A DNA stretch of 64,000 bases from Bugulina stolonifera (taxonomy: Eukaryota; Bryozoa; Gymnolaemata; Cheilostomatida; Bugulidae): assembly GCA_935421135.1 (NCBI GenBank), contig OW285192.1, positions 11,921,501-11,985,500 of the forward strand, given 5' to 3'. This document shows, one piece after another, positions 1,362 through 63,400 of the stretch (position 1 is its first letter; every line of letters begins with the position of its first letter). The translations under genes were made by a program, and so were the position numbers. Below the pieces are notes generated by a model. The model was given only the letters and a program-made list of their open reading frames with translations, was not told where the DNA came from and made no database searches.

Positions 1362-4300
1362 TTATAAGAGTGTACATATCTGGCTGCTAATTCGTATCTC
1401 TTTACATGATGCTAGATCCGCTGTGTCCATGTCTTCCTCCGGACGTTTCTGTTTCTGTTTCTGTTTCTGTTTCTGTTTCTCTTTTGCATTTGTGAAAAAA
1501 CTGAACTTCCCGCTTGACGCCTTTGATTTTTCTCCCTTGGCCTTTGATACTGAAGGATTTTTCATTGGCCGTTTAGATTGTGCACGACTCTCTACAGGGG
1601 AGCCAGGGTCATCCGGCTTCCAATTAGAGGCAAACTTCATCTCTTTTCGACCCGGAAGTATAGGTATGAACTCTTCTGTTATTTTCACAGTTGTAAGATA
1701 TTTCTACAATAACATCAAAATGAAGATGCAATGGATAAAAATCTTTTACAAAATGTTTTGGGTTTACAGGAAATCTAATTTACATCAATGTCAGTAGAGC
1801 TTCATTGGCAGCATATGGCACATGTACACAGTGTTGATTCTATGAGTGCTGCTACCTACGTACATGTATATCAATAAAAGTACCAACGTGTACAATCATC
1901 TAATTGAATAAGATTTCCATAAAATTTAGAGAAATCTTATTAAACCAAATCATTGAGTGATTCAAAATAAAAGTTATACATGTAGTACATTTTAATGATT
2001 CACTTCATGTGATACAATAAGATATGATAATAGAACTTCCAAACATAGAAAGGAAAGGTACTACTAGAATGATGTAATATATTGTTACATTATTGGTGTT
2101 ACTTACCCAGCCACCTCCTGCCACATCAATCCATTCATGGACTCCATGAACACAAAAGAAATCTATACAGAAATCAGCGAGAGATTGTACTACGTCTGCA
2201 GGTTGATCAATCGAAATCTGAAGTGTCAGTTTTTGAATAATGGCAAGCATCTAAAATTTACAAATAAAAAAAATAAATAAACAAAATATTTTGTGCCAAA
2301 TTAGTAAATTTGAAGATTTACATGCAACAACGATATGTACCAGTGGAACAATTGTATGCACTTGGTAAACATAGATAAAGACGGCCAGATAGAGGCAGTG
2401 ATTGCCATAGCTTAGCACTAAATTCTTAAACATACAATGTTACCCAAGTTGTGAAACTCTCACTTTTGCAATAAAATTTTCCATAATTTTACAAAATCAA
2501 GTTATAAAATGGCTGTCGAGGAGTACTCAGGAGTAGGTTTACTGCTTTGTTATTTGTTATTTTGTTACTGTCGAGCCACTTGGCCATCCTATTTAACGGA
2601 CCTCAGATGTTCGAAACTTGTATGAGCGACAGAAGCTGGGCTCCAAGTGGAAGAGCTCACCTTCCACAACAGGAGTGCATGGTCAGTGACCACTACATCA
2701 ACTTGCCACCCCAATGTAGTCACATACTTCGCCAGAATCTGGCTTCTCTTTGCGAATCAGGGCAGAAGAGGATCTTTAGTGTGCGTTTTTTTGATGTAGA
2801 CACTACATGGGGCCTCCTGTATTTTTTGTTTGCCTTGATCTGAACAGGCGCAGCTAGGGTGAAAGGCTCGCTGAAGGCCTTTGCCAGAAATGACACAGCT
2901 GGGGGTTTGAACTCACAACCTCTCGGTTTGTGTGCATGTGTGCCACCAAATGTGCCACCCTGACACCCTTTTACATAACATCAATAAAAGTTGAAGATTA
3001 TATAAGCCTGCTGAACTTTAATAATACTTACCAGAAAAACTTTTTCCCAACTCAATGTTCCAGATGTATGTGCTGAAATCAAAGCTCTAAAGACAGACAG
3101 TCTGGGCTTTGCTGGATCATCAATGTTACTTTGAAACTCGGTACTCAACTTTTTGTAGAAATCCAAAACGGCAGGAATAAATGTATCGTTGGCACCTGTT
3201 AAAATAATAAACGTAATCAGCATTACCTCATCACGTGTGTAGTTTATAATCTACCTGTGCATCTGCCATTTGTGTTCATTAAATACCAAATCCGCCAAGA
3301 ACTCATAAAATTACAGTAGAGAGCAATAACATAGCAAACTATTAGGCTGAATTTTTACATCAAACTTATAAATATCTGATTGTAATTCACATTGTGTTTC
3401 TACTCTAGCCAGAACTGTTATTGCACTGACCAAAATCTGTTACTTAGCTACATTGAAGAAGTGATATCAACATACAGACTCGGTGCAAGGCATTATGTAT
3501 GCAGCCTAAAATCTGCTCCATCTCTGGCTTCTCGCTTGTTGGAAGGTCTGTATTCATGTTTTGCAATGAATCAAGAAATTTCTCATGAGTCAATGACTGT
3601 ATGTTATGCATAAGTGTGCGAAGACTATAAAATAAGAAATATAAGTTATACATGACATTGCAGAGTTGGGTTATAACTACACCAGGAGTTGTTTATCGAG
3701 TAGAGGCTACAGTGTAATAGAGTCGAGATCACAAAGTGTGAAATTTGTACAAAACTAGGTTTATGCTGGTTCACACTGAACTTAGTATTTGAAACTGTTT
3801 ACTGTTATTAATAATATACATAGATTTCTTAGATTATGAATCTGCTGTATGAAAGATATGATCATGCATTCTCATGCATGCAACATCAGCAGTCCATCCA
3901 TATCTATGACGGTCACGGCCTGCGAAATAGAGTGGTGCTCATGCAGGCTGGTTTGAGCCCCGCCTCTATAGTCTACATCTTTGTTGTGGGTGAAGTTTTC
4001 CCGCACGCTGGACCATGCATGAAGGTCATCCTTTCTCCACAGCGCATGTCTTGCTGTTTTAGCTGGGCTATAAGAACATTAGACTAGTGTCTACCTGGTA
4101 GGCCTCATGTCCCCTCTTCAGCGGCTCTGGCCGTATGTTGTCCGCCTGCACAGTCGCTACCCTGTTGGACACATCAACATTCACACTTACCATGCCATCA
4201 TCACTTCAACTATCACTGTTGTGGTTCGATAAAACTTTTCTTCCCCAAGAGGTTTTGTCTCCTTACGAGGAGGAGGAGGAGGAGGAGACAGTGAATCCGA

Positions 4301-7300
4301 AGAGGGTGGACGAACTGGGGGGACCAGTCGTTTCTTCGGATCATACTTGTAGCTACATCCTGCTCGTTCTGGACCACTCTCACTCTTCGGTCGCTAAAAG
4401 CATAAATGGTGTTATCTCAATCAAACCAGAGAAACATGGCAGATAATTTCTTTGGCTGGTTAAGGTAGAGCTACATGAGAGGCCGTGAGCTTCGGTAGAG
4501 TAACTTCGTCGTTTGTTGGCATGGCTCTAAATAGGCGACGCGTAGTACCAGTCCACCAGTGACCTGGATTAATATTCAGCCTATAAGCAAAGCTGATTCT
4601 AAATTAATTATACATGCATAATGGAAGTCGTTTTATCTAATATTAACCAATCACAGCAGCGCTCTGTAACACTGTCGACCAAAAAGACCAACATGTTGGT
4701 CTTTGCATAGCCAAACAAACGGCACACCGATTTGCACTAGAATGAGGATACGAAGGCCGAAAAAGAACAATTGATCTCTTGTGTAGCCTAGCCTTTACCT
4801 GACTAAGATGGCAGAGTTTCCTTGATTAAATGATGGTAATAAAAGTCTATTAACTTTGGCAGCATTTTGAAGCCTGTGTAAGAAAAGTCAGTAGGAATAT
4901 TAAACTATGTGTATAAATATAATATTTGAACACCTGAAACGCTGATAGAAATTCCCTCAGTGTGTTATACTAACTGGCATTCACTGCAAATAGTAAAAAA
5001 AGTAATGTGCATGTACCTACATTTCTGGCATATTCTCTAAACACTGCATCGATACTGGAGAGTCTTTCTCGAGGCCTAAAATCATCTTCAGGTACCCATG
5101 ATTCGGAAAATTGCTTCTCTTCAAGTGTTGGCAGCCTTGGGTTTATAAACTGGGCGAATGGTATGTCTATCAGATATTCCTTCAATATCAGTATGACTAC
5201 TTTGTAATTTATATGAATGTTAGTTTAAACCTAGGCAAGCATGTGGTATGTTTATTACATCGCCTGCGTCAAGCGTCAGTACAAGTAAACAAGCTAGCTA
5301 GTAAATGTGTTGTCGCTGTCACATGAGCATTGGTTATATGGTAAAAAGTTGCACACTTCAGATTTATACAAAGCTGAACAAAAACCAGTAAATTATGGAA
5401 TAAGACCGGCTTCAGTAGGAAAACAAAGATGGTGGTAAGGTAGGTCGAGAAATTCAGGTGATATTATCACTTACCCAGCCTGAACCTTGATTAGAAACCC
5501 AGTTATGGACACCGTGCACTGTGAAGAATTCCAAACTGTGGGAAGCCAATAAAGCCACTGCCTGGATGTCTCTTTCATTAGAGATCCGATAAGCTGCTGT
5601 TTGAATCATCGCTAACATCTGAAAGTAAAAGAGACCATCTAAGTTCTGGATTGTGGTTGTGGGTGCATCACAGAGCTAGACAACATCACTTGTATCCGGA
5701 AATTACATAAATTAGGCTATTACTATAAAGTGGCCATCTATCCCTGCAACAGTTTTTTGACCAAATTAGTCAAAGCTCTCAACATGATGTTCGGCACGGC
5801 AAAGAGTTGAATTCTATTACTGTGTTACAGTCAGTGGTGAAGACAGATCACTCATGAGTGATCAGTATTGTGGAACTAATAATTATTTTACCTCTTTATC
5901 TGGACAAAAGTCAATTATGCTCAACTTTCTATAGATATTATTTTCCGAGTTAGGTGCTGAAGTGGAGAAATTTGAGATAGCCTTTGTTCTTCGCCAAAAA
6001 TGAAGCAGGAGAAGTTGTCTTCTCTAGATTCTGCTGGTTGACCGTCCTTACCCCAAACCCCAACCACAAACAAGGAACTAAGGCTATCCAAATTTCTTCA
6101 CTACTGCACCTAGCAGTATTTTCCATGATGCGCTGTATTTGGTAGGTATTTACAAACATTGCATCAGTATAATACAACTGTTTCATTGAAATATTCTCAG
6201 TTAATCTACAGTATAGCATCAGAAACTGTATAAATCAAGGTTTTCGATAGTCAAGGTAGTCAGCCTGTATTTCATCCATTGAAATTTATTCAGAAAACAG
6301 CTGATCATTTACCATTCCACCATTGCACCATTCCTGTCAGTAAAAATGATCACTTCCACAATACTACATGCACTTAACAGTTTTATAAGTTTGAATTCTT
6401 GCTAGGCAGCTACAGGTTTGAGTCACAAGTTTAAAGGGTGCATAGTATCCGGATCAGCCTTAATCACAAATCCTAAGATGGCTACTCGACCTAAGTTAAG
6501 CAGACTGGCGACCTGAAATATTGCATGGTTGGAGGAAGCCATCCCTAACTTATTGGCCCACCTTAGTTTTTCACACAATTTCGCAGCGTGTTCGCGACAC
6601 CAATGCAGGAAGTAGGTCAGAACTTTCTTGAGCAAGTTGCTTTGTGCATGAGACTAACCGTTAAAACTTTGGTCCAGTTGAGGGAACTAGTTCCTCTTGC
6701 AGATACAAATGCTCTAAATAAGACCATGCGTGCTTCCTCTTCGTCAGGAATATTGTAGTAATAATCAAACCCAATGTCATCGATATAGTCTGAGCTGACT
6801 ATTTCTCTCTTCTCATCTGTGACTGCAAATAAGACGCTACATGTACTAAAAGAGTCATTTTAATAACATAGTTTTAGTGTAATTTACTATTATTTCTGAG
6901 AAAAAATAATTATGATCAGTTTGCGGAATGTAGCCCACAGCCCGCATCAATCCAACATTGGTCCATAATTTCCTGCGTAATATGTGTGTTTTATGTGGGT
7001 TCTAATATTAAAAACTATGACAATTTGAACATTTTGCAAATCACGCCGATTTGTTACCTAAAACAGTGTAAATTCACATTCAGCATGAAGAACTATAATC
7101 TAGCATATTAGGGATTTTCTCCCTACATGTGATTCAAGTTATGCTATGCAGAGCTGTCAATCTATGCATGTACTCGTATATACAGATGACAAGTAGCATT
7201 CAGTGCTCTTAGATGTTTTCCAACAAATATAGGACAACATTGTTTTTCCATTGTCACATGTGCTTTGCCTAAAACATAATCACAAGTTCATTAGAATGAT

Positions 7301-9034
7301 AAGATTGCTAGAGAGTAGGTAACCAATAGCATTAATATACTATGGCTAGCACATACACATCTCTTTAACAATAGCAGTAATATACTATGGCTAGCACATA
7401 CATTATCTATTTAACAATAGCATTAATATACTATGGCTAGCACATACATATCTATTTAACAATAGCATTAATATACTATGGCTAGCACATACATATCTAT
7501 TTAACAATAGCATTAATATACTATGGCTAGCACATACATATCTATTTAACAATAGCATTAATATACTATGGCTAGCACATACATATCTCTTAAACAATAG
7601 CATTAATATACTATGGCTAGCACATGCACATCTATTTAACAATAGCATTAATATACTATGGCTAGCACATACACATCTACTCAACAATAGCAGTAATATA
7701 CTATGGCTAGCACATACATATCTATTTAACAATAGCATTAATATACTATGGCTAGCACATACACATCTATTTAACAATAGCATTAATATACTATGGCTAG
7801 CACATACATATCTATTTAACAATAGCATTAATATACTATGGCTAGCACATACACATCTCTTTAACAATAGCATTAATATACTATGGTTAGCACATATACA
7901 TCTATTTAACAATAGCATTAATATACTATGGCTAGCACATACATATCTATTTAACAATAGCAGTAATATACTACTATGGTTAGCACGTACATATCTCTTT
8001 AATGGTTAGCACATACATATCTATTTAACAATAGCATTAATATACTATGGCTAGCACATACATATCTATTTAACAATAGCATTAATATACTATGGTTAGC
8101 ACATACATATCTCTTAAACAATAGCATTAATATACTATGGCTAGCACATACATATCTATTTAACAATAGCATTAATATACTATGGCTAGCACATGCACAT
8201 CTATTTAACAATAGCATTAATATACTATGGCTAGCACATACACATCCACTCAACAATAGCAGTAATATACTATGGCTAGCACATACATATCTATTTAACA
8301 ATAGCATTAATATACTATGGCTAGCACGTACATATCTCTTTAATGGTTAGCACATACATATGTCTTGTAGAGCTGTCATTACAGTTATGCAAATCCTATC
8401 CATCCTCTTCTTTTCTGTAGCTGGCATCATAGGTATAAAATCAGATAGCTCTCTCTCATACTTCTTGCTCTCTTTTGAGGATACCTTGCGATTAGCAGTA
8501 ATTCTGGAAGAGCAACAGTAAATAGTAAGTAGGGTAGTAAGAATAAATCTGCTAAATATTGTAGTGAACTGTATTTAGAATAATGTGGCACCTTCAAGCA
8601 ATACCAATACAAATATCAATATCTATTATACCAATACCAAAGAATAACAATACCAATACGTGTTACTCTTGGCCAATACCTTGTAATGATGATCTAGACA
8701 AACAACACTAGTTTCTACCTCACATATTACCTTATACATTTACATGTGCATGGACTTCACATACATGGATTGCAACATATACGAGTACAACTACATGTAC
8801 ACATCTGTGAATTATATGATTATATATACACATGTATTACACACCCATGGGTTATACATTATATACACACATTATGTTATATAAACACACATACCCATTG
8901 GTTATATTATTTATACACATTATATACCCGTTGGTTATATATACACAATATATTACATACCCACTGAATATCACCTGGATGACAACAATTGGTGTCTCGT
9001 AGGTATTATCTTCCTCTGGCTGATTTGAAGCCAT
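1362..9034 (-). CDS. Two-domain Bcl-2-like protein (paralogue B2), 10 exons
   Basis: Exons in coding order: 9034-8961, 8503-8358, 6822-6659, 5618-5475, 5179-5021, 4393-4191, 3624-3476, 3195-3032, 2250-2107, 1703-1362. They total 1689 nt, or 562 residues, and all phases match. Start is the ATG of MASNQPEED. Domain 1 has BH1-like LNWTKVL (Trp about 123) and BH2-like VHNWVSNQGSGW (Trp 176). A Pro/basic linker follows (about 230-297). Domain 2 has SWEKVFL (Trp about 396) and VHEWIDVAGGGW (Trp 449). Each BH2 Trp codon is followed directly by a GT donor in phase 0, the intron position known in Bcl-2 family genes. The tail is Lys/Ser-rich with a KQ run from a CAGAAA hexamer repeat; no transmembrane anchor is visible. 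Exon 5 is modelled with an AAG acceptor giving EYLID after the Trp, parallel to KYLTT in domain 2. Role in apoptosis is inferred from fold only. Nearest relative is B1. Confidence 0.8.
2870..2965 (-). mobile_element. tRNA-derived SINE-like sequence
   Basis: On the minus strand a box-A-like TGGCACATTTGGTGGC is followed by a box-B-like GAGTTCAAACCC. Not a functional tRNA fold. Confidence 0.35.
5950..6113. mobile_element. MITE, TTAGGTGC inverted ends
   Basis: About 164 bp with long imperfect inverted ends (TTAGGTGC...AAGTGGAGAAATTT and its complement). A near copy lies at 29193-29356. Related core sequence (GTGGTTGAGGTTTGGGGTAAG) also appears at 9477 and 25080. Sits in intron 3 of B2. Confidence 0.65.
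7320..8350. repeat. 45-bp minisatellite in intron 2 of B2
   Basis: About 22 copies of a unit reading (plus strand) CAATAGCATTAATATACTAT + GGCTAGCACATACATATC + TATTTAA. It abuts the donor of exon 2 at 8357, and each unit holds the donor-like minus-strand string ATATGTATGTGCTAGCC. Long frames through it are an artefact of the 45-bp period. Confidence 0.95.
8810..8960. repeat. Tandem array in intron 1 of B2
   Basis: Degenerate units with CCCATGGGTTATA, CCATTGGTTATAT and ACACATTATA directly downstream of the exon 1 donor (minus strand GG then GTATGTAATATA). Confidence 0.8.
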
Positions 9035-13756: not shown

Positions 13757-16700
13757 TTAAATGGTGCTAGATCCCCTGTGTCCATATCTTCCTCCGGACG
13801 GTTTCTCTTCTGTACTTGTGAAGAAACTGAGCTTCCCGCTTGACGCCTTCGATTTTTCTCCCTTGGCCTTTGATACTGAAGGATTTTTCATTGGCCGTTT
13901 AGATTGTGCACGACTCTCTACAGGGGAGCCAGGGTCCTCCGGCTTCCAATTAGAGGCAAACTTCATCTCTTTTTTACCCGGAAGTATAGGTATGAAATCT
14001 TCTGTTATTTTCTCAGTTGTAAGATATTTCTACAATAACACAAACTGAAGATGCAATGGATGAACGTTTTTAACAAAATTCCTTGAGTTTACATCAATGT
14101 CAGTACAGTTTCATTGGCAGCATATGGCACACGCACATGTGCCGATTCCATGACTGCTTTTTCCGCTACTTATATCAATAAAAGCACCAACGTGTACAAA
14201 CATCTAATTGAATGAGAAGGATAAGTATAACAATACTGAGAGCAACAGTAAAAGAAATTATACTGAACGCTAGACTGGTGCAATTGCATAATATCATGGA
14301 TCTTGTTTTTGCACATATACAGGTATATTTGCTTTCCTTAAATTTCCTTTAATGATTCACTTGATGTGATAATTTATTGTTACATTTTATTGGTGTTACA
14401 TACCCAGCCACCACCGACTGTATCGACCCATTCATGAACTCCATGAACACAAAAGAACTCTATACAGAACTCAGCGAGAGATTGTACTATGTCTGCAGGT
14501 TGATCAATAGAAATATGGAGTGTCAGTTTCTGAATAATGGCAAGCATCTAAAATTTACAAATAAATAAATGAATAAAATATTTGGTGCCAAATTAATAAA
14601 TTTGAAGATTCAACAATTGGAACAATTGGATGCGCTTGGCATACATGGATAAAGATGACCCGATAGAGATAGTGATTGCCGTAGCTTAGCATTAGCAAAT
14701 TTCGTGAATGCTCTACATGGTTCTACCTAGACATATTCACAGGTACTTCACATGTCTGCTCTGTCTAAACATTTTTGAGTCAATTTGTATTCATTTATTC
14801 CTTGCAAAGCAATTCTCATTTTTGCAATAAAATTTCCATCAGTTTACAAAATCAAGTTATAAAATGGTTGTTGTGGAATACTTAAGAGTAAGCCTACTAC
14901 TTACATGTACATAACATCAATAAAAGTTAAAGATTAATAAAGCCTGCTGAACTTTAATAATACTTGACTTGCCAGAACAACTTTTTCCCAACTCAATGTG
15001 CCAGATGTATGTGCTGAAATCAAAGCTCTAAAGACAAACAGTCTTGCCTTTGTTTGATCATTCCTGTTACTTTGAAATTTGGTACTCAAGTTGTTGTAGA
15101 AGTCGAAAACAGCCGGAGTAAATGTATCGCTGCCATCTATTAAAATAATAATGTTAATCAGCATTACCTCACCACATGTATAATTTATGATCTACCTGTA
15201 CAGTTGCCATACTTTCTCATCACATCGTAGAATTTGAATTTTATGATCATTAAACACCAAATCAGGCAAGAACTCATAAAGCTACAGTACAGAACAATAA
15301 TATAGCAAACCAGAATGCTGAATTTTTACATCAAAATTATGAATATCTGATTGTAATTTACATTGTGTTTCCACTCTGGTCACAACTGTCATTGCACTGA
15401 CCAAAATCTGTTACTTAGCTACATTGAAAAAATGATATCAACATACTGACTCTGCGCAAGACACCATCTATGCAGCCTACTATCTGATGTATTTCTGACT
15501 TCTCGCTTGTCGGAAGTTCTGTATTGATGTTTTCCAGTGAATTGAGAAACTTGTTATGACTCAATGACCGTAGGCAATCCATAAGTCTGCGAAGACTATA
15601 AAAAAGAAATAAAATATAAGTTATACATGATGTTACAGAATTGGGTTATAACTATGCCAGGAGTTGTTTATCAAGCAGAGGCTAGTAGAGTCTAGATCAC
15701 AAAGTGTGAAATTTGTACAAAAATAGGTTTCTACTGGTTCACACTGAACTTAGTATTTGAAACTGCTTACTGTTATTAATAATATACATAGATTTCTTAG
15801 ATTATGAATCTGCTGTATGAAAGATATGATCATGCATTCTCATGCATGCAACATTAGCAGTTCATCCGTATTGAGTGGTGCCCATGCAGACTGGTTTGAG
15901 CATCGCCCCTCTAGTCTAAATTTTGGTTGCGGGTGAACCTTTCCCGCACGCTGGACCAAGCACAGAGGTCCTCCTCTCTCCACAGCACATATCTTGCTGC
16001 CTTGGCTGGGATATAAGAGCATTAGACTAGTGTCTACCTAGTAAGCCTCTGTTCCCTTTTTTTGTGCTCTGGCAGCATGTTGTCCGGCTGCACAGTCGCT
16101 ACCCTGTTGGACACAACAACATTCACACTTACCATGCCATCATCACTTCAACTATCACTGTTGTAGTTCGATAAAACTTTTCTTCCCCACAAAAAACGGG
16201 AGGATTTTTCATTAGTTGTTTAGACTGCGAAGAACTTTTTGCAGGGGAGCCAGTCACATCTGGATTCCACTTGGAGGCAAACTTCATCTCTTTTCGACCC
16301 GGAAGTATAGGTTTGAACTTTTCTGCTACGTTTACAGTTGTAAGATATTTCTACAATAACATCAAACTAATGAACTTTTTTTAAAAACATGTTCTTAGGT
16401 TACAGCAAACCTACTTTACATCAATGTCAGTAGAGCTTCATTGGCAGTATATGGCACATGCACATCGTGTAGATTCCATGAGTGCTGCTACTCACATCAA
16501 TAAAAGGACCAACGTGTACAATCATCTAATTGGATAAGATTTCCTTAAAACTTAGGGAAGTCTTATTCAACTGAATCATTTAATGTTTCAAAATAAAAGT
16601 TATACATGTGGTACATTCACTACTTTAATGAGTCACTTGATGTGATACAATAAGATATGATAATAGAATTTCCAAACACGGGAAGGAAAACTGCTACTAG

Positions 16701-19700
16701 AGCATTGTGGAGAATCAGCATGGACTATAATCTTGTGCATACATGCGTTGACATTGTTCCCATATTTACTCTATTACCATGCATTGTCATTGTCTTACCT
16801 TATACTCTTGTACAGGCATGGACATTACTCTACTATTATTATAATCAACTGCTTATGCACAGTGTTCTTTGTATTATTGTTACTATTAACCAATCAGGTT
16901 ATCACATTTAAGCATGGTTTAACATTACTATGTATGCAATTATCTATTTAGCCTGATCATATCTTCTAAGTCTTTTTACTGTACACTTTTTGGGCCGTTG
17001 TCTTGGAACATGGCCATATTAATATACTATCCACTTCAGACTATTGCAAGCACTTTTTGTGCAAGGCCCACCCTTTTGGTGGCCGACGTCGGGCGGAACT
17101 ACTCCATGTTGTTGCGCAAGTTCCAGCCCGATACCTTATCGTACTAGCCCGATACCTTATCGTACTAGCCCGATACCTTATCGTACTAGCCCGATACCTT
17201 ATCGTACTAGCCCGATACCTTATCGTACTAGCCCGATACCTTATCGTACTAGCCCGATACCTTATCGTACTAGCCCGATACCTTATCGCACTAGCCCGAG
17301 ACCTTATCGTACTAGCCCGAGACCTTATCGTACTAGCCCGAGACCTTATCGTACTAGCCCGATACCTTATCGTACCTTTTCTCAGGAAGTGTATTTAGTA
17401 TAAAAGCCAGCACATTTTCTGTATCGAATCAGTTGTTGATTGCACTCTAATAAAGCATCATCTCCTAACTCAACCTAGAAGCTTACTCTTGCAGGCGGGT
17501 AGCTTCACCCACAGGTCTTCTTAGACCTAAGCGGCTCAAGCTCACTCCATACTCGTATAAGCATCTCTTTCTACACTCCTTGTGAGTCTACATCTTCGGG
17601 CTTTAGTCGATCCCGGATTCTTTATGAATCTAGCGTCGGGCCTAAGCTCCTAGATTACTACTACTTCTTTCTACACTCCTTTGGAGTATAAATCTACAGA
17701 CCTACGTCGACCCTGGACTTTTTCATGAGTCTCAGCCTCGGCCTTACGTCATTATCAACAAAACTAGAGCATTAACTAACTGTTCACTCTTTATATAATG
17801 TGTGGAAGGTAACTTGGTCGTTCTCTACCAACCTCCAAGCACCCGTGCCATATCAGCACTTGTATGTAACACAGCTCAAAACATTACAATAATGTAATAT
17901 ATTGTTGCATGCTGTAAATCTTTGGTGCTACATACCCAGCCACCACCAAATTTTTCGATCCATTCATGGACTCCATGAACACGAAAGAACTCTATACAGA
18001 AATCAGCGAGAGATCGTACTATGCCTGCAGGTTGATCAATCGAAATCTGAAATGTCAGTTTCTGAATAATGGCAAGCATCTAAAATTTACAAATAAATAA
18101 ATAAATAAATAAATTTTTGGTGCTAAAATAATAAGTTTGAAGATTCAACAACGATGTGTACTCGTGGAACAAGGAGTAAGAAGAGACTTTACTCTTTTAC
18201 TTTTACCCATTTACTCTTTACTCTTACCCCTTTTACTCCTTGCCGTGGAACAATTGGATGCGCTTGGCATACATGGATAAAGATAACTCGATAGAGATAG
18301 TGATTGCCGTAGCTTAGCACTAAATTTTTAAACAAACAGTGTTAACAAATTGTGAGAATTCTATACATGGCTAAAAGTAGCTACAAATTGATCATGAAAT
18401 AAAGTATTACAGTATTTATCTTCAACACAGGAAAGCTATTACTAATCTGTGCGCTTGAGCTACAATTATAGTAGTAAATTAAGCCACTTTAGTAGATTCC
18501 TAACAAATAATATAAGACACAAGCTTCTTACAGGAAGCTATTTAGGCTAGACCAAAGACCATATAATTATAGTGTTGCCAGGAAACCAAGTCACCAGCAA
18601 GAAGCCAAGAAGAAAAATGAAAAGACAACTCTTATAGGCTAAGAGGCAAGACTTAGCCTGCAGTTTCTGTTGATCAAATACCGAATAAAGTAATGTAACC
18701 CTACAGGAAGCAGAGTGAGTTACACTCCATACATATAATTCTGTTGCACACACTGATATAATGTGCATTATTGTAATATAAATAACTATAAAACGATAAT
18801 ATAATTTAAAACATATTAACATAAAAAATATTTTATTTACTTTATGGGGCAGCGAATATTCATGTAACGGGAACATGTTGATTCAAAGTGTACATAGATT
18901 TGTTTCATTTAATGCAAAATTCAGCATATAGCTTGGGCAGACATCTTGTTGCACAATTTCCGGACGATGCTACGTCGCCCTTTTGATAATACATACTCTT
19001 TTCTCAAGAATAATCTAAGCATTGACTCGGTACCTATGGGTCGTCTTCAATAAGTTACTATAACTACAAGTACTGTTCACTTTCTATGGAATAAGGAAGG
19101 TTTAGCACTACTCATAGGCTCTTCCCACACTCGTGCTAGTACCAGTACCAGTACCAGTACCAGTACCAGTGTGCACCCTTCTGGGGTAGCACACTGGTAC
19201 TGGTACAGTAATATGGTTGTTGAGGGATACTCAAGAGTAGGCTTACTGCTTACATAGTATCAATAAAAGTTAAAGATTAATAAAGCCTGCTGAACTTTAA
19301 TAATACTTGCCAGAAAAACTTTTGCCCAACTCAATGTGCCAGATGTATGTGCTGAAATCAAAGCTCTAAAGACAAACAGTCTTGCCTTTGTTTGATCATT
19401 CCTGTTCCTTTGAAACTTGGTACCCAAGTTTGTGTAGAATTCCAAAACGGCCGGAATAAATGTGTCGCTGGCATCTATTAAAATAATAAAGTTAATCAGA
19501 ATTACCTTATCACGTGTATAATTTATGATTTGCATGTACATTTACCATACTTTCTCATCACACCGTAAAATTTGAAGTTTATGGTCATTAAATACCAAAT
19601 CAGGCAAAAACTCGTAAAATTACAGTACAGAACAATAATATAGCAAACCAGAATGCTGAATTTTTACATTAAAATTATGAATATCTGATTGTAATTTACA

Positions 19701-22700
19701 TTGTGTTTCCACTCTGGTCACAACTGTCATTGCACTGACCAAAATCTGCTACTTAGCTACATTGAAAAAGTGATATCAACATACTGACTCTGCGCAAAGA
19801 ACTATGTATGCACCCTACAATCTGATCCATTTCTGACTTCTCGCTTGTTGGAAGTTCTGTATTGATGTTTTCCAGTGAAGTGAGAAATTTGTTATGGCGA
19901 AATGACTGTAGGCAATCCATAAGTCTGTGAAAACTATAAAATAAGAAATAAAATACAAGTTATACATAATGTTACAGAATTGGGTTATAACAACACCAGG
20001 AGTTGTTTATCGAGTAGAGGTTAATAGAGTCGAGATCACAAAGTGTGAAATTTGTACAAAATCAGGTTTCGGCTATAGGAACATTAGACTAGAGTGTCTA
20101 CCTGGTAGGCCTCCGTTCCCTTCTTCAGTGCTCTGGCAGCATGTTGTCCGGCTGCGCAGTCGTAACCCTGTTGGACACAACAACATTCATACTTACCATG
20201 CCATCATCACTTCAACTATCACTGTTGTGGTTCGATAAAACTTTTCTTCCCCAAGAGATTTTGTCTCCTTACGAGAAGGAGGATGAGGAGACAGTGAATC
20301 CGGAGTGGGTGGACGAACTGGGGGGACCGGTCGTTTCTTCAGATCATACTTGTAGCTACATCCTGCTCGTTCTGGACCACTCTCACTGCTCGGTCGCTAA
20401 AAGCATAAATGGTGTTATCTGAGCCAAACCAGAGAAACATGGCAGATAATTTCTTTGGCTGGTTAAGGTAGAGCTACATGAGAGGCTGAGAGCTTCATTG
20501 TTCGTTGGCATGGCTCCTTAGGCAATGTGTAGTACAAGTCCACCAGTGGCCTAGATTGATATTCAACCAATAACCAAAGCTTCTTCTGAATAAATTATAT
20601 ACTATACATGTAATTGGAGCCATTGTAGCTAATATTAACCAATCACAGCAGCGCTCCGTAACATGTTGGACTTTGCATATTGAAACAAAAGAACAATCTG
20701 CCTCCAGTGTAGCCGAGCCTTTACCTGACTAAGATGGCAGAGTTCCCTTGATTAAATGATGGTAATAAAGTCTATCAACTTTGGCAACATTTTAAGCCTG
20801 TGTAAGAAAAGTCAGTAAGAATATTAAACTATGTGCAAATATAATATTTGAACACCTGAATGCTGATGGAAATTCCCTCAGTGTGTTATACTATCTGGCG
20901 TTCACTGCAAATAGTAAAAAAAGTAATGGGCATGTACTTACAATTCTAACATATTCTCTAAACGCTGTATTGACACTGGGGAGCCTTTCTCGAGGAATAA
21001 AATCGTCTTCTGGTACCCATGATTTCGAAAATTGCCTCTCTTCAAGTGTTGGCAGCCTTGGGTTTATGCACATAGCGAAAGGTAAGTCTATCAAGTACTC
21101 CTTCAATATCAGCATGACTCCACTTTGTAACTGATATATATGTTAGTTCTACTGTAGGTAAGCATGCAGTCTGTTTATTGCATCGCTTGTGTTAGTATGT
21201 AGGCCTATATGTAGGTGAACAGGTCAGCTGTAAATTTGCTGTAGCTGTCACATGAGCATTGGTTGTATTACAAAAAGTTGCAGATTTATACAAAGCTGAA
21301 CAAAGACCAGTAAATTATAAAAAAAGACTGTTTTCAGTAGGAAAAATACAAATGGTGGCAAGGTTGTCATAGAAACTCAGATGATGTTATTATTAATTGC
21401 TTCTTACCCAGCCTGAACCTTGATTAGAAATCCAGTTATGGACACCGTGCTCTGTAAAGAATTCCAGACTGTGGGAAGCCAATACAGCCACTGCCTGGAT
21501 GTTTCTTACTCCAGAGATGCGATAAGCTACTGCTTGAATAATTGCTAACATCTGAAAGTAAAAGAGACCATCTTCATTCTGGAACATGGTTGTGGGTGCA
21601 TCACAGAGTCAGACAACATCATTTCTATCCGGAAATTACATAAATTAGGCTATTACTATAAAATGACCATTTATCCCCGTAACAGTTTTTAGACCGAATT
21701 AGTCAAAGCCCTCAACATGATGTTCGGCAAAGAGTTGAATTCTATTACTGTGTTACAGTCAGTGGTGAAGACAGATCACTCATGAATTATCAGTATTGTG
21801 GAATTCTAAACATTCTCTAGTCTTCACTTTTGCCAGCTATAAAAATAGCTGTATATATTAATGATTTTACCTCTTTAGTTGGACAAAAGTCAATTATGTT
21901 CAACTTTCTAAAGATATTATTTTTCATAATATTAGGTAGTATATTTAGTATAATATTCTTTCTTCATTAAATTTTTACAATACCATGTATATGTAGCATA
22001 GGATCAGGATAATTGTGAACCAAGAATGTCGCCTGTCAGCCTGTATTTTCTTCATTGAAATTTATTCAGGAGACAGTTGATTATTTACTGATTGGCACCA
22101 TTTCGGCCAGTGAGTAGTATAGTCAGTGCAGATATCTACAGACATGCACTGACTCTACTACTCCTATGCAGGAAGTGGGTCAGAGAATTGCTGAGCAAGT
22201 TGTTTTGTGCTTGAAATTTCAGTGTCAAAGACACCAACAGATCAGACTAACCGTTAAAACCTTGGCCCAGTTGAGGGAACTAGTTCCTCGTGCAGATACA
22301 AATGCTCTAAATAAGATCATGCGTGCTTCCTCTTCTTCAAGAACTTTGTAGTAATACTCAAACCCAATGTCATCTAGATATTTTGAACTAACTATCTCTC
22401 GCTTCTCATCTGTGACTGCAAACAAGATACTACATGTACTAAAAGAGTCATTTAAATAACATAGTTTTAGCATCATTAACTATTTTTTCTGAGACGAAAT
22501 AATTATTATCAGTTTGAGAAATGTAGCCCACAATTCACATTGATCTAACATTGGTCCATAATTTCCTGCAATGTGCTTTATGTGGGTCCTAATATTAAAA
22601 AATATAACAATTTGAATATGATGCAAATCGCTTTTTTTGTCACTTAAAACAGTGTATATGTACATTCAGAATAAGGAACTATAATACAGCATTTCACAGG

Positions 22701-24661
22701 GTCTGTGTAGATTATTTAGGGACTTTTTGTCTACACCCGAATCAACCCCCACTTATGCTATGCAGAGCTGCCAATCCATTGTACATGTACTCGTATATAC
22801 AGATGACAAGTAGCATTCAGTGCTCTTAGGTGTTTTCCAACAAATATAGGACAACATAGGTTTTCCATTGTCACATGTACTCTGCCTAAAACATAATCAC
22901 ACACTTATTCGGTAATATTGCTAGAGAATAGGTAACCAATAGCATTAATATACTATGGCTAGCACATACATATCTCTTTAACAATAGCATTAATATGCTA
23001 TGGCAAGCACATACACATCTCCTCAACAATATAGCATTAATATACTATCGGTTAGCACATATACATCTCTTCAACAATATAGCATTAATATACTATGGTT
23101 AGCACATACACATCTCCTCAACAGTATAGCATTAATATACTATGGTTAGCACATACACATCTCTTTAACAATAGCATTAATATACTATGGCTAGCACATA
23201 CATATCTCCTCAACAATATAGCATTAATATACTATGGCTAGCACATACATATCTCTTCAACAATATAGCATTAATATACTATGGCTAGCACATACACATC
23301 TCCTCAACAGTCTAGCATTAATATACTATGGTTAGCACATACACATCTCCTCAACAATAGCATTAATATACTATGGTTAGCACATACACATCTCTTCAAC
23401 AATAGCATTAATATACTATGGCTAGCACATACACATCTCTTCAACAATATAGCATTAATATACTATGGCTAGCACATACACATCTCCTCAACAATAGCAT
23501 TAATATACTATGGTTAGCACATACACATCTCTTCAACAATAGCATTAATATACTATGGCTAGCACATACATATCTCTTCAACAATATAGCATTAATATAC
23601 TATGGCTAGCACATACATATCTATTTAACAATAGCAATAATATACAAAATTTAGCACGTACACATCTCTTGTAGAGCTTCTGTTACAGCTGTACAAATCT
23701 TGTCTATCCTCTCCTTTTCTGTAACTGTCGTTATAGGTATAAAATCAAATAGCTTTTTCTTGTACGTCTTTCTCTCGTTAAAAGATAGCTTTTCATTAGA
23801 AATAATTCTGGAGGAGCAACAATAAGCAGAAGTAGGCTAAAATATTGGACTAGCAAGACTAGATCTACACTCACGCCAGTTTCTATCTCACTTAATTATG
23901 TATATATTAGTAATAAAGCACTAGATTGTAAGCTGAAACAAGTGCTATTACTCCCTACATAATATACATGTAGTACATGAATTTCATACCCATAGACTAT
24001 ACTGTATATGTATATAATACATGTACATATTATATTACGTACACATGGGCTATATAATATAATTATGCATTATAATACATACCCATGGGTTATGCAATGT
24101 ATATTACATTCCCATGGATTATATAATATACACATTATATTGCATACCCATGGGTTATATTACATGCATATATATGTATATAATACACATTATATTACAT
24201 ACCCATGGGTTATATAATATACACATTATAATACATACCTATGGGTTATGCAATGTATATTATACACATTATATTAGATTCCCATGGGTTATATATAATA
24301 TACACATTATATTGCATACCCATGGGTTATATTACATGCATATATATGTATATAATACACATTATATTACATACCCATGGGTTATATAATATACACATTA
24401 TAATACATACCTATGGGTTATGCAATGTATATTATACACATTATATTAGATTCCCATGGGTTATATATAATATACACATTATATTGCATACCCATGGGTT
24501 ATATTACATGCATATATTTATACACATTATATTACATACCCATGGGTTATGTAATATACACACTATATTACATACCCATTAAATATCACCTGAATGACAA
24601 CAACCGTTGTCTCGCAGGTGTCCTCGCAGGTGTCGTCTTCCTCTGACTGATTTGAAGCCAT
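13757..24661 (-). CDS. Three-domain Bcl-2-like protein (paralogue B1), 14 exons
   Basis: Exons in coding order: 24661-24576, 23807-23662, 22415-22252, 21551-21408, 21100-20942, 20396-20197, 19933-19785, 19474-19311, 18079-17936, 16350-16133, 15595-15447, 15136-14973, 14547-14404, 14029-13757. They total 2304 nt, or 767 residues, with every junction in phase. Three Bcl-2-like domains are read: BH1/BH2 Trp pairs at about 127/180, 399/452 and 624/677. Motifs are LNWAKVL with NWISNQGSGW, SWAKVFL with EWIEKFGGGW, and SWEKVVL with EWVDTVGGGW. Exon 10 is a fusion of a C-terminal exon to a linker exon. Exons 8 and 12 use GC donors (GCAAGT) where B2 has GTAAGT. An alternative exon 5 acceptor at 21131-21132 (CAG) would add ten residues. 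An older reading is a two-domain gene followed by a remnant, but the third unit keeps all frames and splice sites. Hydrophilic tail, no membrane anchor seen. Confidence 0.72.
16133..16350 (-). other. Hybrid exon: C-terminal exon fused to linker exon
   Basis: From the acceptor at 16351-16352 the first part matches the C-terminal exons of B2 (1703-1362) and of the third B1 unit (14029-13757): KYLTT, then ILPGRKEMKFAS, then MKNP. Near 16190-16205 it switches to the second half of the linker exon seen at 20396-20197 and 4393-4191 (GEEKFYRTTTVIVEVMMA) and ends at that exon's GTAAGT donor. The exon is 218 nt, which takes phase 0 in and phase 2 out, exactly as needed to join exon 9 to the next domain exon. 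This is the scar of an unequal exchange. Confidence 0.82.
16706..17888 (+). mobile_element. Solo LTR-like element in intron 9 of B1
   Basis: Starts TGTGGAGAATCAGC and ends CTCAAAACATTACA, matching the LTR at 38269-39221. TATAAAA is near 17400 and AATAAAG near 17450. A 21-bp tandem repeat lies just upstream of the TATA box. No clear 4-bp target duplication remains. The same intron of B2 (about 2060-2090) lacks the element and reads straight through the insertion point, so it inserted after the gene duplication. Confidence 0.8.
17127..17375 (+). repeat. 21-bp tandem repeat in LTR U3, about 12 copies
   Basis: Unit TAGCCCGATACCTTATCGTAC, single-copy in the related LTR near 38680, expanded just upstream of the TATA box. 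A T-to-G variant (CCCGAGACC) marks three adjacent copies. Confidence 0.95.
18170..18242. mobile_element. Foldback element, CAAGGAGTA ends (copy 1)
   Basis: About 73 bp, CAAGGAGTAAG...TTTTACTCCTTG, flanked by copies of CGTGGAA(C). The paralogous intron of B2 near 2340 has the empty site (AGTGGAACAATTG). Lies in intron 8 of B1. Confidence 0.65.
18900..19140 (+). mobile_element. LTR remnant with internal deletion
   Basis: Fragments match the LTR family: CTTGTTGCACAATTTCCGG, then GTACCTATGGGTCGTC, then the end block with ACTGTTCACTTTCTATGG, CTTCCCACACTCGTGC. The TATA and poly(A) part is missing. It lies in intron 8 of B1 and runs into the hairpin at 19142-19205. Confidence 0.5.
19142..19205. repeat. 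Microsatellite hairpin
   Basis: A run of CCAGTA hexamers is followed by GTGTGC, a 14-base loop and GCACACTGGTACTGGTAC, giving an 18-bp perfect stem. Confidence 0.85.
22930..23655. repeat. 45-48-bp minisatellite in intron 2 of B1
   Basis: Same family as 7320-8350, about 15 copies, some with an extra ATAT. It starts at the exon 2 donor (23661). Confidence 0.95.
24000..24575. repeat. Tandem array with about 172-bp higher-order unit in intron 1 of B1
   Basis: Basic units CATACCCATGGGTTATATAA; a higher-order block starting near 24147 recurs near 24318 almost unchanged. Each basic unit repeats the exon 1 donor string GGGTATGTAATATA on the minus strand. Confidence 0.9.
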
Positions 24662-49672: not shown

Positions 49673-50023
49673 TTAACCAGCACACTCGGCAGAGGTAAAG
49701 AGAGCTGATTCACCAGCATCTACTAATATATCCTGAGGGTGGTCTAAGCCAGTGGCATTCTGTAACTTGCAAGAACCTGTTCGCGTGTTGTACTTGGCTG
49801 AGAGACAATCAGAATGTTGTACACATGACTTTAGACATCCTGCTGGTGAAGATGCAGTGACACTCAAGACAATGTGCCTCGCAGCTAACCTCTTTCCAGC
49901 CTTACGGCAGAAAACCATCTGCTGTTTCATTGGTTGATATGTTTTCTGGAACGGCACTAACTCTGTCTCTACAGAATTTTTGATTAATAAACTTATAGTA
50001 AATGATATGAATAAAAATGACAT
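49673..50023 (-). CDS. Small PAN/apple-like domain ORF
   Basis: An uninterrupted frame from ATG at 50023 to TAA at 49673 codes 116 residues. A short hydrophobic start (MSFLFISFTISLLI) may be a signal peptide. A PAN/apple-like block follows, with CRKAGKRLA, PAGCLKSCVQHSDCLSA and TGSCKLQN; the Cys spacing (C...CLxxC...C...C) fits the PAN core. It may be a one-exon secreted protein, or the last exon of a longer gene: the frame is open upstream of the ATG, and acceptors exist at the AG before GTTGAAAATG and at CTGTAG within the ORF. It lies downstream of the pentraxin-like gene on the same strand. No function can be assigned. Confidence 0.45.
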   Translation of the reverse strand: MSFLFISFTISLLIKNSVETELVPFQKTYQPMKQQMVFCRKAGKRLAARHIVLSVTASSPAGCLKSCVQHSDCLSAKYNTRTGSCKLQNATGLDHPQDILVDAGESALFTSAECAG

Positions 50024-50239
50024 TTTCAACCTGTAAGACCATCTCTGCAACTGTACCAACTGTACGTGTAAATGTTGTCTATGTACATGCATCATATACA
50101 TTGTACATACAATGTACATTATATACACATAGTACAATATGTACATAATGCACAATCTATACACATACATGCACATGTACATGTATGTGTGTAATAATAC
50201 GTCACACAATGAGCATTTCCAACTCCGTGACCCACCTGG

Positions 50240-50373
50240 CTGATAGTTATTGCTCCATCGCATGTGCAATACATACGAAGGTCAGTAACCTTAGCCCTAA
50301 GCCCTAAGTGTGTACTTGTTGCACCCCAGGCTATCAGACGCACAACAATATTATTTGTAGAAAATTCAACCAT
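50240..50373 (-). other. Possible coding exon of unknown gene
   Basis: The minus-strand frame reads MVEFSTNNIVVRLIAWGAT, then a Cys-containing stretch LRMYCTCDGAITISQ, and ends at a fair donor (CAG then GTGGGT). Composition looks coding and it lies between the pentraxin-like gene and the PAN-like ORF, but the phases do not join simply to either. It could be a 5' exon of the PAN gene or chance. Confidence 0.25.
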
Positions 50374-60475: not shown

Positions 60476-63400
60476 TCAACTCGACATTATTTTAAAAAGT
60501 TCTTTAAAGTCAGCAAAGTGAATGTCCAGGTTTTCTTTCTTGCCCAGAGGAGAAATCTTACAGAGCCCTATTCGTTCGTCTGAAGTATTGTGACCATAGT
60601 AACCACCTAGATTACAAATCATAACAATCCAGTAATTTATATATAGAGTATTACAACATATACATGTGAAAAATACTAAAGTATTATAGAAACAAATGTC
60701 TATTGAAAAAGTCCGGAGACAACTCCAAACTGGTGATGAGTGTTATTAATTAGGAGTTGTCTTCCTTTGGTTATCAATCTGGAGTTGTCCTATTCCCAGT
60801 TGAAAGTAACCGAGACCAAGAGGATGTTTACAGTCGCTGTTCATAAAATGTGTAACAACTTGAAGGTGAGATTGTAGCTTCACCCCAAAATAACTGGAAG
60901 GTGAGATAGTAGCTTCACCCCAAAATGGAAGGCAAGATAACTTCAACCTTTCAGTCTTGGAAAACCGTCGTTGTAAGTAATATAATCTCCCTATATTATA
61001 AGGAGATAATAATACTATTAGTACTAATAGTACCATATTATTATTTAATCACAACTCAATAATTCTGAAAAGACAGACTTCCCAAGCATCTGACATAATT
61101 TAGAATAAATTTTAGAAGACGTAGAAGTATACCTAAGATTTTCTGAACTTCTAGATGAAGAAACTCCCCAGCTTTATACAACCCTCTGTCCTTTGCAGCA
61201 GACAACTTACTCACCACTTGTCTGTCAACCTACAGTCACATGACTATCCTCAATATAAAGTCACATGACTATCCTCAATATAAAGTCACATGACTATCCT
61301 CAATATAAAGTCACATGACTATCCTCAATATAAAGTCACATGATTATCCTCAATATAAAGTCACTTGATCAACATCAACATGCAGCTACATTAGCAATAT
61401 ACATGTGTTTCTCAGAGGATACCTAAAGTCGTACATCGCATGTGTAACATAATTATTCCAAAAACATTGCTAGTGTAGCACATTATTGTTTACTATTATT
61501 ATCCAGTCAATGCCTTTATTGGAGAAATGTCATATTTATGTAGTCTAAATCAACTATAATTTTCTCAACAATTTGAAGATAAGGAAACGATCTGAAGCTT
61601 CCAACTACATAAATTGCAAAATGTCGGCCATGTACAACGGCAGTACCAAAATATAAGATATACGACGAATAGACAACATCAGGCAACCGTACCTCATGTC
61701 GCATATATCTGGCTCCATATCTCTTATTAAAGGCCTTCTGCAAGAGGTCAAGGACAGATGGATCCCATGTCAAGGTCAATCCATGCGTAGCCGCTATAGA
61801 CCTCACTTGACAAAGTTGATTCTCAATTACTTCTCTCTCTTCGGTACCAGAGAACGGTAGAAATATAGCCAGTTCATTAATCCTCCCCAGCAGCTCATCT
61901 CTCTTAAAAGCAGCCTACAACATACATGTAGATCATAACTCTGACGGGTTTTGAGCTTTAACCTTGTTGGTAGGAGGCTCACTTTTCTGACTGCTAGACT
62001 ATAGTTGTCCTGCCTTGCTCAACTAGCATATCGTCATAATATGCTCATCCATTAAAATACATTTCATATCAACAAATACGTACCTTCATTGGTCCATGGA
62101 GTACCAGCGATTTGAAATGATGGATGTAGTCTTGACGGCTCATTCTACCATTTGTTTTAATGCTACTTCCTGTTTCCTCGGTATCATCAAACGTTCTCAG
62201 TTCTCTTCCAAACACATCAATCTCTTCTGTTGCAATATTTGCTGTCAGCACAAATATAGCTTCTGCACAGTCAACAATCTTACCAGAACCACTTGTTAGA
62301 CGCCCCTCATCAAACAGCTAAATAAAAAGAGGATACCATGCTACAACCAATTGCATTACATGTAAATAAATATAGGCTTATTATATGCTTCAAAGCCTTT
62401 TACTCAGCATTAAAAAACCTAATAAGAATGCCTTATTTTGTTAAGCATTATTAGCACATTCTAGCGATGAAAACACTACTACTTGAACAGTCCCTCTCAG
62501 AAAGGCTACAGAGACACAACCGTGCATTCCACAGGTAGAACACCAAATAATGCATGCATTTACCTGGAGAAGGGTGGATAGTACATTGGGGTGAGATTTA
62601 CATGGAGAAGGGTGGATAGTACATTGGGGGGGATTTACCTGGAGAAGGGTGGATAGTACATTGGGGTGAGCCTTATCAGCCTCATCAAATAGCACAACAG
62701 CTTTAGGATTCTTAGCTAACAATGGTATAAGTTGACCTTCACTTGTTTCACTGTAGCCTACGTATCCTGGAGGTGCTCCTATAAACTTGGCCGCCTGCAA
62801 AGTTGTTCCAACAAAATATATTATATATTATCTCAAGAAAAAAGTATAGTTTAGGTTTTACTTCAACTGTACAGTCGTGAGGTTAGGTAATAATGACATG
62901 CACTACTTAGTACCTGCAATACCGAAGTGACCGCTCAATCTACACTGTGTGCATATGCAATGATAACTCTATTCCATCCTCATTTGAATATCAAGAATGG
63001 TAACTATATAATCAGTGAGAATCAGCAGCCCTAAATCATGTGATCTTATGGACAACTTTCAGTTGTGTTTGTTGATTTGAGATTACCGAAACAATATGGC
63101 TAATAAAAATCAAATATAGTTCAATGCTTAGACTTTAAATCCATGATTGCCAACAGCTACTAGTGATTAAAATTAATCATAGGACATGGCATACTTTAGG
63201 GGTTTTCTACTCCGATCTTGGTTTGGTGTCCAGCACACAACCCTTTATTCAATTACTACCAACTCCTATAATTATTTCTTATAACGTAAGTATAAACTCA
63301 TTCTGCTGATAGAAAGCATGACCTCTAAACATCACAGTTTGAGTGTTTCCTAATAAGGTAATAAAGCAGATATTATACTGACCTCGTGTTCTGTCTGGTA

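Follow-up and report, generated by a model that had tools for sequence, protein, structure and literature searches.

A gene in a 64,000-nucleotide stretch of the genome of the bryozoan Bugulina stolonifera very probably encodes a protein with two tandem Bcl-2-like domains. The stretch (assembly GCA_935421135.1, contig OW285192.1, positions 11,921,501 to 11,985,500) is referred to below as the window, and the gene, designated gene B, lies at window positions 1362-9034 on the minus strand. It belongs to a local array with two paralogs, A and C, while a one-domain relative, gene D, is located farther along the same contig. The genome searched comprises 235 Mb in 27 contigs, and the window corresponds to C6:11921501-11985500. 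The explanation that we consider best, and probable as a whole, is that gene B specifies a single soluble two-domain protein that originated by internal duplication and acts as a non-classical scaffold.

Exon-by-exon reconstruction from the DNA yielded a model of ten exons and 562 residues, which runs from an ATG at 9034 to a stop ending at 1362. All nine introns have GT-AG boundaries, and pyrimidines are few, by eye, at the acceptor of exon 5. The exons and the Bcl-2 homology (BH) motifs that they carry are as follows.

Exon 1, 8961..9034, minus strand: 74 nt, phase 0 to 2; contains the start Met, the N-terminal part and, at its end, a BH4-like helix; resembles the end of exon 6.
Exon 2, 8358..8503, minus strand: 146 nt, phase 2 to 1; first core exon of domain 1, with paralog matches.
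Exon 3, 6659..6822, minus strand: 164 nt, phase 1 to 0; BH3-equivalent region of domain 1 and the start of its BH1 (NWTK).
Exon 4, 5475..5618, minus strand: 144 nt, phase 0 to 0; end of BH1 through BH2 of domain 1, last residues WVSNQGSGW.
Exon 5, 5021..5179, minus strand: 159 nt, phase 0; repeated post-BH2 part of domain 1 and start of the linker, without Met.
Exon 6, 4191..4393, minus strand: 203 nt, phase 0 to 2; linker rich in Pro and Ser, together with the domain 2 BH4-like helix; first in-frame Met at residue 65 of 67.
Exon 7, 3476..3624, minus strand: 149 nt, phase 2 to 1; domain 2 equivalent of exon 2.
Exon 8, 3032..3195, minus strand: 164 nt, phase 1 to 0; domain 2 equivalent of exon 3 (SWEK).
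Exon 9, 2107..2250, minus strand: 144 nt, phase 0 to 0; domain 2 equivalent of exon 4, last residues WIDVAGGGW.
Exon 10, 1362..1703, minus strand: 342 nt, phase 0, with the stop; repeated post-BH2 part of domain 2 and a basic tail (isoelectric point, pI, 9.81), with no membrane anchor seen.

An earlier donor that would shorten exon 1 to 60 nt was rejected because exon 2 would then be read out of frame; with 74 nt, the donor is GTATGT and the phase is correct.

The repeat is evident in the exon structure itself. Exons 2-4 and exons 7-9 form equivalent triplets, both entered in phase 2 and continuing 2-1-0-0, and the rebuilt model reproduces the lengths and phases given by an earlier sequence-only reading of this DNA. 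Each triplet carries a BH1-like Trp and ends at a BH2-like Trp with a phase-0 intron immediately after it, as that reading had also noticed. The same intron follows the equivalent exons of A, C and D. Its position is a published trait of the family, described for sponge, placozoan and mouse genes (PMC8998228).

At the protein level, the two halves of gene B are 31% identical over 167 gapless residues (expectation value, E, 5e-31). They score 91.3 bits against each other, and the maximum among 100 shuffles is 21.2 bits. The duplicated unit had been equated with the triplet, which is indeed repeated, yet the repeat extends further, as matching sequence also opens exons 5 and 10. Less surely, the BH4-like helix appears to be part of it too. 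The hydrophobic 18-residue stretches that end exons 1 and 6 are moderately alike in gene B (5/18 identical; 128 of 10,000 shuffles as high) and in paralog C (5/18; 189 of 10,000), and in paralog A they share 7/18 residues (4 of 10,000).

Comparison with the Bcl-2 profile (Pfam PF00452; curated cut-off 31.4 bits), a check named in advance, bears out the claim of two consecutive Bcl-2-like domains. The whole gene B protein scores 47.6 bits over two stretches, above the cut-off, and its halves match singly at E 1.8e-5 and 9.5e-7. Whole A reaches 47.5 bits, with one stretch passing E 0.01 by itself, and whole C reaches 79.3 bits over three stretches. All seven single domains cut from A, B and C match the profile, at E 0.001 to 2.7e-8. 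When searched against solved structures as a single sequence, half 1 of gene B finds a BCL-2 protein best (7jmt, E 0.0022) and half 2 finds BAX and BAK (E of at least 0.03); a profile of the seven domain copies also leads to BAX and BAK (E 0.001-0.005). Two ordinary Bcl-2 genes of this genome, searched as reading frames, find Bcl-w and Bcl-xL at the far lower E of 3.2e-18 and 7.6e-18, which makes the tandem family a distant branch.

Searching the whole genome with the gene B protein returned at least 32 exon-level places at E <= 1, of which 31 fall within about 32 kb of C6 and one lies 1.6 Mb away. Gene A (L029, outside the window) has ten exons with the phases of gene B and 599 residues. The cluster genes are predicted to carry two (A, B) or three (C) Bcl-2-like domains per chain. 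The remaining members, and the Bcl-2 genes with which they are compared, are listed here.

Paralog C, 13757..24661, minus strand: 14-exon model of 767 residues with three Bcl-2-like domains (exons 2-4, 7-9 and 11-13); the stop position is derived from exon lengths.
Exon 10 of C, 16133..16350, minus strand: 218-nt hybrid linker exon, open and in phase; its front resembles exon 10 of B and its end resembles exon 6 of B.
GC splice donors, window 19311 and 14973 (C, after exons 8 and 12) and L029:3943 and 2600 (A, after exons 6 and 8): GT at the equivalent positions of B.
Gene D, L031:2156-5431 = C6:13520656-13523931, plus strand: one-domain relative; a 1082-nt first exon of 360 residues, which looks acidic and repetitive, precedes the domain.
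Two adjacent ordinary Bcl-2 genes, L030, C7:8557501-8567400: WGR, GGW and, in each, its own hydrophobic last exon.
Two Bcl-2 places on C9, L032 and L033: BH1 reads SMGK and NWGK; exon structure read in part.

The hybrid exon of C connects domains 2 and 3 and provides a BH4-like helix. In A, B and C, every one of the 34 modelled exons is open and in phase; near its C-terminus, C departs from the reading frame shared by A and B.

Two further observations concern the relation between B and C. Intron 2 of gene B contains a 45-bp minisatellite (7324..8343) and intron 2 of C a related 47-bp array (22939-23670), and both probably predate the B/C split. In linker exon 6, a raw count between B (4191-4393) and C (20197-20396) gives 9 nonsynonymous and 0 synonymous changes.

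The linker bears on whether gene B is one gene or two adjacent one-domain genes wrongly fused in the model. The fused-gene alternative draws on the presence of adjacent Bcl-2 genes in this genome, the C7 pair. Under it, an unmodelled start exon would be possible, and exon 5 does contain one Met in each of these two paralogs, A and C, and lacks Met in B. Exons 5 and 6 of gene B together encode 120 residues, of which about 75, rich in Pro and Ser, lie outside the repeated parts. In none of the three genes does exon 6 contain an in-frame Met before the BH4-like helix with which domain 2 begins: A has none in 72 residues, and the first Met of B is residue 65 of 67, that of C residue 64 of 66. The exon phases across the linker are kept in A, B and C. 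Moreover, the A-B comparison indicates that the linker is under purifying selection. The ratio of nonsynonymous to synonymous substitution rates (dN/dS) is 0.27 overall (bootstrap 0.14-0.40; 281/300 bootstraps yielding a value), 0.23 in the linker exons (0.14-0.49; 206/300), 0.27 in domain 1 and 0.33 in domain 2. The C7 genes, unlike gene B, each have, by eye, a hydrophobic last exon and a stop. Linker constraint, the lack of an exon 6 Met before domain 2 and the conserved phases make a single predicted protein likelier than two genes, and we judge a fusion of neighbours quite unlikely.

The motifs of these domains depart from those of ordinary Bcl-2 proteins. The genome has seven other places that match PF00452; five of them entered the trees and the motif table, and the two on C9 were left out and read separately. 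The family contributes eight domain copies (two from A, two from B, three from C and one from D). In all eight, BH1 reads W-x-K, where x is T, E, A, Q or P, and in 5/5 tabulated ordinary genes it reads W-G-R; gene B has NWTK in domain 1 and SWEK in domain 2 instead of NWGR. The BH1 Gly is absent from 8/8 family copies and present in 7/7 other places (the five tabulated and the two on C9). The BH1 Arg is replaced by Lys in 8/8 copies and retained in 5/7 other places. The idea that this Arg is common to all ordinary genes is weakened by the C9 places. The loss of Gly is accordingly the stronger point, the change from Arg to Lys being weak evidence by itself.

BH2 has nine residues in 8/8 family copies and eight in 5/5 ordinary rows. 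It reads W-V-S-N-Q-G-S-G-W and W-I-D-V-A-G-G-G-W in the two domains of gene B. Relative to the proposed form WIxxxGGW, both Trp and Gly are present and the motif is longer by one residue. In BH3, none of the eight copies has Gly-Asp at the aligned position, and pattern matches in A fall elsewhere. A candidate BH3 for domain 1 of gene B, IDDIGFDY, was set aside; it recurs, slightly altered, in domain 1 of C and is absent from A, D and the second and third domains. The LxxxGD pattern of BH3 is required in pro-apoptotic members of the family and is weak or missing in some pro-survival ones.

No C-terminal membrane anchor was seen in A, B or C with 19-residue hydropathy windows, whose maxima of 1.29-1.49 all fall inside domains. 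The maximum of gene B (1.29) lies in the BH1/helix-5 region, not at the C-terminus. The tails of A, B and C are basic (pI 9.0-9.9), and gene D shows no anchor by eye. A C-terminal anchor is common in the Bcl-2 family, although not universal, and both this anchor and the BH3 Gly-Asp are usual in effectors. These absences count against a BAX/BAK-like effector that would oligomerise in membranes with two pore-forming units already joined. In favour of such an effector, BAX and BAK are the solved structures that the seven-domain profile matches best, and the family shares the BH1 phase-0 intron with the one-domain C7 genes. We regard it as very unlikely.

The replacement of NWGR by NWTK and SWEK, together with the lack of BH3 Gly-Asp in any copy, makes classical groove chemistry doubtful. 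The BH1 Arg contacts the BH3 Asp in sponge BHP2, and the relevant part of that report calls the contact conserved in almost all such pairs (PMC5386376). The two working BH3-binding grooves that the sequence-only reading had envisaged are not supported. In their fullest form, they would make gene B a bivalent pro-survival protein that traps two BH3 ligands or whose domains bind each other's BH3 as a built-in dimer. One chain with two Bcl-2-like domains suits this proposal, and the BH1 Lys, found in two other Bcl-2 places as well, could preserve charge. In the sections available of the respective reports, mouse Boo, with Ser in place of the BH1 Gly, still binds BH3 with altered selectivity (PMC8998228), and a weak BH3 of their own is frequent among pro-survival members (PMC7022251). 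On the other side stand the BH1 Gly, lost throughout the family and kept at every other place, the missing BH3 Gly-Asp and the missing tail anchor. A passage of the report on Boo also judges a functional groove unlikely in Trichoplax Bcl-2L4, which is without the BH1 Gly (PMC8998228). We consider the bivalent protein unlikely; a built-in dimer of another kind than paired grooves is possible.

The history of the family can be approached through gene D and the ordinary genes. A match to the domain profile at E 4.6e-24 and 30% identity marks gene D as a relative, and it has BH1 TWPK, a nine-residue BH2 and phases 2-1-0-0. The intron five residues past the BH1 Trp is common to the family and the two C7 genes, and introns lie elsewhere in L035 and in the C9 gene of L033. 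In a tree of the eight family domains, domain 1 and domain 2 copies split with support of 96/95, and the domain 1 group is recovered at 98/97 when the five ordinary genes are added. Since the domain 1 copies group on one side of a branch, the internal duplication appears older than the array, which favours one internal duplication before gene copying.

These elements can be assembled into a coherent, if conditional, explanation. The starting point would be an ancestral gene with one domain, in which the BH1 intron and the intron after the BH2 Trp were both already present. A multi-exon unit inside it would have been duplicated, and gene D would be a one-domain relative with the ancestral type of layout. 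The two-domain gene would then have been copied into the local array of A, B and C, and C may have gained its third domain when exons 10 and 6 recombined in frame. Gene B would be one transcription unit for one probably soluble protein, in which exons 5-6 join two Bcl-2-like helical domains. The sequence itself shows the two domains, the repeated exons, the array, the third domain of C, the altered motifs and the conserved linker; we infer the single mature protein, its soluble location and its scaffold role. Neither the usual binding of BH3 in a groove nor membrane pore formation would be its mechanism. Rather, the bundles may work as paired or serial protein-binding modules of a scaffold or adaptor, possibly packed as a built-in pseudo-dimer, in a role that would be fast-changing. 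The reading of these proteins as soluble, with their two or three bundles serving as scaffold or adaptor and making no use of the classical groove, remains tentative, and on present sequence evidence we give it somewhat less than an even chance. The wider proposition is close to evenly balanced. It would posit an animal protein class in which the Bcl-2 fold is a repeat unit, with two to three serial soluble bundles, BH3-groove binding and anchoring abandoned, and domains gained by exon shuffling in a fast-evolving array.

Several observations weigh against this explanation. The halves of gene B score only 25.7 and 29.7 bits singly against PF00452, under the cut-off, and so do five of the seven domains when cut singly from A, B and C (two reach it). 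Domain 1 of A is the weakest of these, at 20 bits (E 0.001), and gene D, at 23.6 bits, is also under the cut-off. The domain 2 fork has support of 80/79 with D as outgroup in the eight-domain tree, which includes no ordinary genes; the domain 2 group has only 66/75 in the larger tree, where branches are long and three rows are under half filled. Synonymous divergence (dS) between A and B is near saturation, at 1.86 overall and 2.20 in the linker, and GC donors occur in 2/9 introns of A and 2/13 of C. A BH1 Lys is also found, as Gly-Lys, in two of the seven other places, both on C9, and Lys is no family marker. Loss of the BH3 Gly-Asp is not special either, given that the two ordinary genes read through this region differ, with Gly-Asp present in L036 and absent from L034. 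The scaffold role is based solely on absent features. Finally, dN/dS between B and C is 0.73 (0.55-1.03), and this pair alone does not reject neutral drift.

This last interval would fit a decaying copy with no current role, as would the dN/dS of 1.25 (0.67-2.56) in the tail of C versus B and the frame departure of C near its C-terminus. The open, in-phase state of all modelled exons in A, B and C, the intact GT-AG introns of gene B and the A-B ratio of 0.27 speak against decay, and we hold a pseudogene to be very unlikely.

Elsewhere in the window, minus-strand frames at 61519-61914 and 62444-62827 match ClpB_D2-small and AAA_2 (Pfam) and point to a ClpB-like AAA+ gene. A further open frame on the minus strand, at 49676-50281, has a PAN_1 domain (E 8.5e-8).

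The sequence-only reading knew of no described family with tandem copies, which agrees with the literature surveyed. Phrase searches and broader ones of open-licence full text in PubMed Central yielded no description of tandem or double Bcl-2 domains, although databases of predicted proteins may hold some, and the portions of reviews and surveys of the family at hand do not mention them. Among 5.8 billion proteins, no relatives from other species appear at E <= 0.01, either for the whole gene B protein (4429 candidates) or for the seven-domain alignment (1175 candidates). In the usual description, a Bcl-2 protein has one bundle, and separate chains pair by means of a BH3 helix and a groove. 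If the explanation given here is true, a natural chain that joins two or three bundles, none of them retaining the BH1 Gly, would uncouple the fold from the groove mechanism and provide a natural system for testing other capacities of the Bcl-2 bundle. The series of D with one domain, A and B with two and C with three would trace a path of domain gain within one genome.

The known systems closest to gene B compare with it as follows. Gene D is alike in BH1 Gly loss, nine-residue BH2 and phases 2-1-0-0, and differs in having one domain after its 360-residue first exon. The C7 genes have phase-0 introns at the BH1 and BH2 positions seen in gene B; unlike it, they have NWGR or TWGR, an eight-residue BH2 and their own hydrophobic last exon with a stop. 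Sponge BHP2 has one domain. According to the part of its description at hand, this early-animal Bcl-2 protein of Geodia cydonium has, unlike gene B, a canonical groove with the contact between BH1 Arg and BH3 Asp (PMC5386376). Trichoplax adhaerens Bcl-2L4 resembles gene B in being without the BH1 Gly, whereas the available passage presents it as a single Bcl-2 protein that keeps its BH3 motif (PMC8998228). With the multi-motif Bcl-2 family as a whole (PF00452: Bcl-2, Bcl-xL, BAX, BAK and BOK), gene B has in common the BH1-BH2 profile match and the phase-0 intron after the BH2 Trp. In contrast to that family, the gene B type has two to three domains per chain, a BH1 with its Gly lost and its Arg changed to Lys, no BH3 Gly-Asp, a BH2 longer by one residue and no tail anchor seen.

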